Shown here: positions 43,143 through 45,855 of the stretch, piece after piece
How the letters are laid out: every line of letters starts with the position of its first letter
Position numbering within the stretch: position 1 is the stretch's first letter
The notes under the pieces: generated by a model
What the model was told of the DNA's origin: nothing
What the model saw: only the letters and a program-made list of their open reading frames with translations
Database searches by the model: none
Position numbers and translations under genes: made by a program
Source: Nitrospirales bacterium
GTDB lineage: Bacteria; Nitrospirota; Nitrospiria; Nitrospirales; UBA8639
Assembly (NCBI GenBank): GCA_021604365.1
Contig: BQIZ01000006.1
Span: 1 to 52,603 of the forward strand
Length of the DNA: 52,603 nt
Direction of reading: 5' to 3'

Positions 43143-43220
43143 GTCCCCATCGTCTAGCCTGGCCTAGGACGCCGGCCTTTCAAGCCGGCAACACGGGTTC
43201 GAATCCCGTTGGGGACGCCA
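43143..43220 (+). tRNA. tRNA-Glu (TTC)
   Basis: Acceptor GTCCCCA/TGGGGAC, anticodon arm GCCGGC-CTTTCAA-GCCGGC with anticodon TTC, T arm ACGGG-TTCGAAT-CCCGT, discriminator G and encoded CCA. The last 20 bases recur exactly at 44727-44746, which makes this gene a likely integration target. Confidence 0.97.
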
Positions 43221-43692
43221 CTTCCTATTTTATTCAGTAGTTTGTCCCACAAGGATGTTGTCAGGACTCAGAAATTGAATTTTTGCTAAATCCTCTGTTT
43301 TCTTTCGCATTTCAAGCATATTAAGCTCATACTTGCGTCTAGGCCTTCGCTCTAAAGGCTTTAAAGACCGTGACGACGATTGGCACAGTAACGTAGCAAG
43401 TCCCCTCAGGTAGTTTCCGCTCTTTGCCCTGACCTTTCAAGAACGCGCCACCCGTTTTCAGAAATTAAAGTGGTATCTTCCCAATTCTTTCATAGGACGC
43501 TTCTCCTATGGATAATCATTTTCATTTATAGGCTTTTAGGAATCGTGCGTTCTAAGTATGAGGTATGTCGTGTGTGCATGAAGGGTATAGTTGTTCGTAG
43601 GCGAATACGTCACAGATATTTTGTCCTGTGCAGTATTTTAGCCATATCCGTTTCCCCCTATTCCACAGTAAATTTGAGGAAGCCATAAAAAA
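43221..43692. other. Left arm of the tRNA-Glu element, no intact gene
   Basis: No gene with start and ribosome-binding site is visible. On the minus strand about 40 codons (complement of about 43343-43463, ending ...VVTVFKAFRAKA) look protein-like and could be the tail of a lost gene. I cannot name it. Confidence 0.35.
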
Positions 43693-44397
43693 ATGCCAGA
43701 TTATTCGGGCGCTCACTCCAATTTTGACCGTAGACAATTTCTTAAAAAGGTTCTTTCAGGTGCTGTCGTTGGGGTTGCGGCGCAAGCTGGAATCAATTTC
43801 GGTTCTCCTTAAGATCTTCGCGCCCAGACCAATCTTAGGCCCGATGAAGCTTTACAGGAATTACTCGAAGGCAATCGGCGGTTCGCTGCAGATTAACTCA
43901 TATCGATTGAGCCCCATCTGGCCATCTTGAAAGCGCATGCCGTTGATAAACAAGAGCCATTTGCGGGGGTACTTGCCTGTGCCGATTCTCGCATACCCGT
44001 GGAACTCGTCTTTGACCAGACGATCGGTCACATCTTCGTCACACGCGTTGCCGGGAATGTGGTGTCACCGGAGATTATCGCCAGCCTGGAATATGGAGTG
44101 GCTGTCCTAGGGGTCAAAGTTCTTCTTGTGGTTGGTCATAGTGGCTGCGGTGCAGTAAGAGCTGCGATGAAACCCGACACGGTACCAGGACAAATCAGCG
44201 TGGTGTATCAGCACCTTCTGCCAGCAATGGGACAGTCTGGCGACAATCCCGATAAAGCCATCAAGGCCAATGCAAGGTTTCAGGCCGAATTGCTCCGCAC
44301 GTCCTCTAAGGTCATACGGGATGCTGCGAAGGCCGGCAAACTGAAGGTAGAAGCTGGAGTTTATGATCTTGCCACAGGCATAGTCAGTTTGAGCTAA
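43693..44397 (+). pseudogene. Tat-exported beta-carbonic anhydrase, broken by two in-frame stops
   Basis: A single reading frame of 235 codons from ATG 43693 to TAA 44395 is interrupted by TAA at 43810-43812 and TAA at 43894-43896, with no frameshift. Codons 1-39 encode a twin-arginine signal (FDRRQFLKKVLSGAVVGVAA). The next block reads like the family N-terminus (LRPDEALQELLEGNRRF). The catalytic part (from about 43927) keeps the zinc and active-site residues ACADSR and GHSGCGAV. The enzyme would hydrate CO2 in the periplasm. The ORF track reports only the last 156 codons, starting at a poor TTG. It is most likely a recent pseudogene. Confidence 0.8.
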
Positions 44398-44440
44398 CCG
44401 CCTTAACCCTGGTATTTTCAAATCAACCGGAGTTTTGCAG

Positions 44441-44569
44441 ATGGGCGTCATGAGAATCCGCCTGGGCACGAAACTCGAGCTGGCTGTTTCTTTGGAAGTC
44501 ATTTTAAAGTCATCGTCTTTCGATCCCTCTTGTCTCGCTCTCCTCCGATCACCGATACTTCAGCAGTGA
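44441..44569 (+). pseudogene. Possible N-terminal fragment of a membrane sensor gene
   Basis: ATG 44441 opens 42 codons beginning MGVMRIRLGTKLELAVSLEV. This resembles the cytoplasmic-to-membrane start of methyl-accepting or histidine-kinase sensors (RxxLxxKLxLAVSLxV). The similarity stops after about 25 residues and the frame ends at TGA 44567. It is within the tRNA-Glu element. The resemblance is by eye and weak. Confidence 0.3.
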
Positions 44570-44726
44570 GTACCCATAAAAGGAACGTAATCATTCTGTG
44601 CCAAGGTCTGTATGGAATAGATTGATTCTTGAGCCTAACACTCCAAATTTTTCCACATTCTGAACAGGCCGCTTTGTGGCTAGCATAAGTAATCGCCAAG
44701 ACATTTGGAAAATACCGCTCCTCATT

Positions 44727-44746
44727 GAATCCCGTTGGGGACGCCA
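44727..44746. repeat. Outer att copy: duplicate of the tRNA-Glu 3' end
   Basis: An exact 20-base copy of the tRNA-Glu 3' end, GAATCCCGTTGGGGACGCCA, including the CCA and part of the T arm. The bases before and after it differ from those at the tRNA, so the match has sharp edges, as expected of a recombination site. Confidence 0.75.
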
Positions 44747-45000
44747 AGGCTCAACCTGTTGAAGATTTGTTGAGAGGTATTGGTTTGTTATGCGGTATAT
44801 TAGGTTTCATAAGAATGTGACTTTGCCCCCTTCACTCAGCCACTCAAGTTCGATATGGTAAAACACAAGACCAGAGCTTAGTTCTTAAGTGAATATGCCA
44901 CTAATGGTGCGAAATTCTTTCTGTCCTGGCGACCGAGGGTCGAATGGTCCCTGACAGAGTTTCGTACTCTTAATCATTCCTAATCTTTGGCGAGGACTGT

Positions 45001-45855
45001 ATGACGCGTACATGGTTTTGGGGAATTGTTGGAATCTTTTTCATCATAAATGGTCTGAGCCAGCCTGCCTGGTCTCAAGAGTCCAAACCAGGAGATGCTC
45101 CAGAGCAGGATGATGGCCCGCCGGGTTCAATGGTGCTTATTCCTGAAGGGGATTTTCTCATGGGAGATAATGACGGCTCTCGAAACGAGCGACCGGAACA
45201 TACTGTTTGGCTGGATGCCTATTCTATCGACCGGTACGAAGTGACCATGGCGGAATACCAGAAATTATTGGATACCGATTATAGTATTGAACCTCCGCCG
45301 CTGTGGGATGATGGAATTGCCACTGGAGATTTTGGGATTCGACCGGCCGTGGGAATTTCCTGGAACGATGCCAAACGGTACTGCCAATGGGTGGAAAAAC
45401 GTTTGCCGACGGAAGCCGAATGGGAAAAAGCCGCCCGTGGCACGGATGGGCGAAGGTATCCATGGGGTCACATGCAGCCCTTTGTGGATATTGCTAACTA
45501 TAACCAGGGGACGACGGGGTGGGTGAGTTATAAACTGACCCTTTCGCCGGTCACGAGCGGGACCAAGGGCATGAGTATTCGTCATGGCTTAAAACAGGGC
45601 GGAAAAAGTGCCTATGGCTTGTATAATATGGCAGGGAATGCTGCCGAATGGGTCAATGATTGGTATGACCGTTTTTATTATGAGGAGAGTCCGAAGAAGA
45701 ATCCTCAAGGGCCGGAGGAAGGCGATTATAAAGTATTACGCGGGGGCTCGTGGGAGGACCAGCCTGTAAACTTACGGGTAACCGCCCGCTCAAAAGGGGA
45801 AGTTGATTATCAGGACCTGACAACCGGATTTCGTTGTGCCAAGGATGCGAAGTGA
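45001..45855 (+). CDS. Secreted SUMF1/FGE-sulfatase-domain protein
   Basis: A 284-residue exported protein: signal peptide WFWGIVGIFFIINGLSQPAWS (cut near residue 25), then one SUMF1-type domain. Domain signatures are MVLIPEGDFLMGDNDG, DRYEVTMAEYQKLL, GISWNDAKRYCQWVEKRLPTEAEWEKAARG, YGLYNMAGNAAEWVNDWY, KVLRGGSWEDQPVNLRVTAR and GFRCAKD. True formylglycine-generating enzymes carry a Cys pair just after RGGSW; here the segment is EDQPVNLRV with none, so it is not expected to make formylglycine. The role (binding, or another iron or copper oxidation) is unknown. Confidence 0.87.
   Translation: MTRTWFWGIVGIFFIINGLSQPAWSQESKPGDAPEQDDGPPGSMVLIPEGDFLMGDNDGSRNERPEHTVWLDAYSIDRYEVTMAEYQKLLDTDYSIEPPPLWDDGIATGDFGIRPAVGISWNDAKRYCQWVEKRLPTEAEWEKAARGTDGRRYPWGHMQPFVDIANYNQGTTGWVSYKLTLSPVTSGTKGMSIRHGLKQGGKSAYGLYNMAGNAAEWVNDWYDRFYYEESPKKNPQGPEEGDYKVLRGGSWEDQPVNLRVTARSKGEVDYQDLTTGFRCAKDAK

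Follow-up and report, generated by a model that had tools for sequence, protein, structure and literature searches.

What placed a second copy of the 3' end of a tRNA gene 1.5 kb downstream of the intact gene? The window, the whole stretch of 52,603 nucleotides analyzed here (genome G000), contains an intact tRNA-Glu (TTC) gene at 43143–43220 on the forward strand, which is identified by ARAGORN and Rfam tRNA and is identical in the sister species G019. The first-pass annotation reported an exact 20-base repeat at the 3' end of this gene and about 1.5 kb downstream. In agreement, GAATCCCGTTGGGGACGCCA occurs at 43201–43220 (attL, from the T loop to the CCA end) and at 44727–44746 (attR), both on the forward strand, and no third copy with up to three mismatches is found in the whole window. 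The chance expectation for such a repeat in the window is 0.01 copies, and a chance origin of the pair is excluded. The identity ends at CCA on the 3' side and in the T loop on the 5' side, where GAATCCC is preceded by TTC in the tRNA and by ATT in the distal copy. The distal copy, in the same orientation as the intact tRNA-Glu, corresponds to the displaced original 3' end of the gene. It is followed by the decayed intrinsic terminator of tRNA-Glu (44747–44780, forward), which now lies 1.5 kb from its gene. The insert between the two copies, with refined limits of 43221–44726 and no strand assigned, is 1506 bp long.

To be an integration scar, the insert should be variable among relatives; the same 1.5 kb with both copies in all of them had been named as the outcome that would speak against it. 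In a genus sample of 21 genomes, the tRNA-Glu locus is compared in 16, and that outcome is not observed: the insert is missing and the site is empty in 13 of the 16 (G002, G005, G006, G008, G009, G010, G011, G013, G015, G016, G017, G018, and G020). At the empty sites, the CCA of the tRNA directly joins a strong intrinsic terminator hairpin, and the right flank of the window then resumes where the contig reaches; the visible part in G005 and G008 is limited to the junction and the hairpin. G019 has the 1.5-kb insert in common with the window genome, with two mismatches in the distal repeat. G001 (Ca. Nitrospira allomarina VA) has exact 20-mers 4.46 kb apart around unrelated DNA. Its insert and that of the window resemble each other in nothing beyond the att repeats and a few bases next to them, and homology between the two inserts is rejected. 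The proposed comparison downstream of tRNA-Glu(TTC) thus yields 13 empty sites, the same remnant in G019, and another island in G001. Farther to the right in the window, the segment 47792–48345, between a DnaJ-like gene and a reverse-strand gene of 1186 aa, is not alignable with relatives and is of variable length.

The terminator records the displacement. The hairpin folds with −18.6 kcal/mol both in G001, where the displaced copy is intact behind the island, and in an empty-site relative. In G000 and G019, where the T run is gone as well, the values are −6.8 and −7.9 kcal/mol. The G001 island itself is a composite: its large serine recombinase (LSR) gene is broken, an IS30-like transposase gene is fragmented, and a piece of a tyrosine integrase lies next to a tRNA-Lys(CTT) 3' fragment (L034:5490-7000).

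We propose that the shared ancestor of G000 and G019 acquired a small mobile element, which integrated site-specifically at the T loop/3' end of tRNA-Glu(TTC). The element's own copy of the last 20 nt restored the tRNA, and the original 3' end and terminator were shifted 1.5 kb downstream. The element would then have lost its recombinase, and it now decays with one dead cargo gene, for carbonic anhydrase. In this scheme, the recombination event and the former possession of a recombinase by the element are what we infer, and the other steps are shown by comparison with relatives. A short direct repeat flanking an insert is in principle also compatible with transposon target duplication or partial duplication of the tRNA, with no site-specific recombination. 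Such an origin is extremely unlikely: the 20 nt end exactly at CCA, identical ends surround wholly different inserts in G001 and N. moscoviensis, and no terminal inverted repeat or transposase is found in the window insert. Duplication is disfavored because independent insertions share the same base. Therefore, the window almost certainly carries a real site-specific integration scar, a dead remnant at the tRNA-Glu of a marine Nitrospira relative. Taken alone, the scar is an ordinary dead island.

The remnant state described in the first-pass annotation is borne out by the contents of the insert. The sole recognizable gene between the repeats is for a beta carbonic anhydrase (Pfam Pro_CA, 5e-33), a pseudogene at 43693–44398 (forward) with two in-frame stops and, by eye, a twin-arginine-like leader. 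A domain search finds no recombinase domain in the 1506 bp, and no piece of a tyrosine integrase is seen by eye in the ORFs and six-frame translations of the insert. A relic of an LSR was also sought with a profile HMM, which gives no match in the insert of G000 or G019 and a clear match in G001. Because there is no integrase gene on board, the insert is classed as a remnant only. Between G000 and G019, the insert is 86–88% identical and the carbonic anhydrase 92%, and most flanking segments range from 92.9% (intergenic spacer) to 97.1% (FGE gene), with higher values for RNA genes. The FGE gene is the FGE-sulfatase family gene at 45001–45855 (forward), assigned by Pfam and synteny. Differences at codon positions 1/2/3 number 14/13/19 in the carbonic anhydrase and 4/4/17 in the FGE gene. 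Since the insert diverges faster than its flanks and its codon differences are spread over the three positions, it predates the G000/G019 split and is under little or no constraint. The carbonic anhydrase is broken by stops in G000 and by frameshifts in G019. Its nearest relatives, 75–76% identical, are in another family of the order, and most congeners have weaker relatives only. The regions of two such relatives (L121 from G062 and L122 from G076) were considered as tRNA islands and rejected, as there is no tRNA gene there.

The site is used well beyond the genus. An order-wide scan of 236 genomes, many of them fragmented, for the 19-nt core AATCCCGTTGGGGACRCCA finds at least two copies on one contig in several of them. 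At tRNA-Glu, N. moscoviensis (NZ_CP011801.1) has an intact 17.2-kb island, whose genes include an intact LSR and others for a DnaB-type helicase and a dCTP-deaminase-like protein. The gene that immediately follows the island is of the FGE family, like the gene at 45001–45855 of the window. Cargo at the site is variable: the contents of the G001 island are unrelated to those of the window insert, and the carbonic anhydrase of the window is nearest to another family of the order. These comparisons support tRNA-Glu as an integration hotspot in Nitrospirales, and the intact 17.2-kb island and the unrelated G001 insert bear out the earlier expectation of a hotspot with intact elements in relatives. 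A 23.8-kb island at tRNA-Glu in G114 (L196-L197) contains an LSR, a Zot-like gene, and a Rep_trans gene, and by its gene content appears to be an inovirus-like prophage. G121 (L199) has three core copies at tRNA-Glu and two tandem islands (5.4 and 7.4 kb), which are without an LSR and keep LSR-type ends. The tRNA-Glu site points to a usable integration site in nitrite oxidizers, for which a 2023 paper states that no genetic tools are available (PMC10579370).

Which recombinase made the scar? The first-pass annotation assigned the repeats to a tyrosine-recombinase island. The integration scar with attL and attR stands, and the tyrosine type is not supported, as the surviving full-length recombinases at the site in the order are LSRs. 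In particular, the full-length recombinases of Nitrospirales that end in the tRNA-Glu 3' end have the Resolvase, Recombinase, and Zn-ribbon domains of large serine recombinases. Relatives of these LSRs end in tRNA-Ala(CGC), tmRNA, tRNA-Ser(GCT), and tRNA-Leu(CAG) genes (L145, L155, L312, and L335). LSRs recur at tRNA-Glu and at other RNA genes in Nitrospirales, and further relatives are present in Acidobacteria, Rokubacteria, and Proteobacteria. In a search of named genomes, the G001 LSR fragment as the only query gives no match, and the LSR alignment as the query gives matches. LSR-type ends are seen at the 18 other distal repeats at tRNA-Glu in the order, clearly in 15 and by eye in 3 (L178, L205, and L378). 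The element type that repeatedly uses the tRNA-Glu site in Nitrospirales carries an LSR.

For the insert of the window, the evidence is less direct. Its distal 5' flank, examined by PWM and alignment, has no significant match to LSR element ends (p 0.59 at the protein level; at the DNA level, 0.03 for G000 and 0.70 for G019), and the distal flank of G001 matches them significantly. The att repeat extends from AATCCC of the T loop to CCA, as in LSR elements at tRNA-Glu, but this extent does not discriminate, for it is shared by some tyrosine-integrase phages, which use the same 20-mer in other hosts, and is usual for that class. Tyrosine recombinases are, moreover, the common mechanism at tRNA genes (PMC4383910). 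IMG/VR contains 16 viral contigs (L105-L120) with the exact 20-mer and without a complete tRNA-Glu; in 9 of the 10 contigs examined with Pfam, a tyrosine integrase (Phage_integrase) gene is near the 20-mer, in several of them close to it, and a serine recombinase is present in L120. An origin of the insert from a phage or island with a tyrosine recombinase, followed by deletion of the integrase, is nevertheless rather unlikely, given that all the other 18 distal repeats are of LSR type and the full-length recombinases there are LSRs. Fragments of tyrosine integrases do occur inside the G001 and G121 islands, but are intact in neither, and in G001 the fragment is away from the att site. Judging from this site association, the insert of the window probably came by an LSR rather than a tyrosine recombinase.

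The 1.5-kb unit might instead be a small non-autonomous element that never had a recombinase and was integrated in trans. The equal small size of the insert in two species, G000 and G019, and the tandem islands of G121, with LSR-type ends and no LSR, are in line with this reading, which is quite unlikely all the same, since loss of the recombinase is simpler. In addition, the 1.5-kb insert is carried by one lineage only, which gives no sign of its movement as a unit.

The LSR elements further suggest how integration may alter the recombinase. The att core is part of the LSR reading frame, on the minus strand, and in the integrated form the last residues of the protein are read from the strand complementary to the tRNA (VSPTGFEPVLPA and similar); other LSRs use the remaining two frames through the core. 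From the distal repeat into the element, the LSR frame continues for ~20 codons to a conserved stop. The resulting tails are of two types, type B (EAVCKRVSSSWDIPFQGFVKVA, EGFCNGPDRSWGISFRGFVNAA, and others) and type A (SKGGTDALGFRIDVRVLAA, SKEGNSNFCFSIDVLALAA, and others). With the two types defined on the same sequences that are used to measure their conservation, variation in type B tails is concentrated at the third codon position (p 0.0003, versus 0.73 and 1 for the other two phases), and the conservation does not extend past the stop codon (pairwise difference, 0.41 versus 0.76; p 9e-11). Therefore, the tail is constrained as protein. It presumably constitutes the C-terminus of the recombinase in the excised circle. 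Attachment ends of the same genome agree in frame, on one contig each in G001, G114, G130, and the genome of L305/L378, and across two contigs in G104, G022, and G237. In the N. moscoviensis circle, the LSR would read through the 19-bp core into ...FKDFCNAAFGAWAIPFQGVVQAA.

Most of the tails have a similar ending. LSRs encoded on viral contigs with no tRNA alongside have similar tails, e.g., SFRGLVRAA and IPLRGLLKVA. An [AVI]A ending is found in 14 of the 18 tails at attR and in 6 of the 7 LSRs from viral contigs, compared with 1.7% of 351 background proteins, a contrast whose binomial p-values overstate the case because the tails are related by descent. The conserved tail, usually -AA, is seen at the attR ends L197, L198, L199, L201, L207, and L213 and on the viral contigs L219-L227. 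Because the host tmRNA tag in the order is ANQELALAA, an ssrA-like degron is a reasonable guess for the -AA tail. Tentatively, attP may thus lie inside the LSR gene, the free circle may encode a recombinase with a degron-like -AA tail, integration may swap this tail and alter the stability or activity of the recombinase, and the scar of the window may be the dead trace of such an element. The literature searched, subscription papers excluded, contains no published C-terminal tail swap of an LSR, which lends weak support to its novelty. What is new in this work, and testable, is the LSR tail swap.

Mycobacteriophages such as BPs have integration-dependent immunity, in which the C-terminus of the repressor is swapped and an ssrA-like tail is removed by a tyrosine integrase. 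The elements described here resemble these phages in that integration would swap the C-terminus of an element protein and remove an ssrA-like tail. In the phages the protein is a repressor and the enzyme a tyrosine integrase; here the serine recombinase would have its own C-terminus swapped and would lose a putative degron.

With the tRNA islands of the Islander class, the locus shares an intact tRNA, a 3' fragment displaced from it without change of orientation, an insert, and an empty site in relatives (PMC4383910). Unlike in that class, the insert of the window is without an integrase and below the Islander limit of 2 kb, and the recombinase of the site in the order is serine, not tyrosine. 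According to Islander (2015), tRNA genes are not a known target of serine integrases (PMC4383910), so island finders limited to tyrosine enzymes would miss the LSR class at tRNA genes.

A close parallel in gene arrangement is provided by the ssrA islands of Dehalococcoides, where the serine recombinase DsiB targets the tmRNA gene (PMC3146451). In both systems, attL lies at the 3' end of a gene for an RNA and is overlapped by a reverse-strand serine recombinase gene, islands occur in tandem, and which stop codon follows downstream is set by whether the element is integrated. The likeness is one of gene arrangement; the target is tmRNA there and tRNA-Glu here, with tRNA-Ala, Ser, Leu, and tmRNA in relatives. 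A codon-constrained tail at attR is seen in the LSR elements of Nitrospirales and is not shown for the DsiB islands (PMC3146451). The 2011 study of Dehalococcoides asked where the recombinase ends, and whether it is fully functional only in the circle (PMC3146451); the conserved attR tail bears on this question and makes it directly testable.
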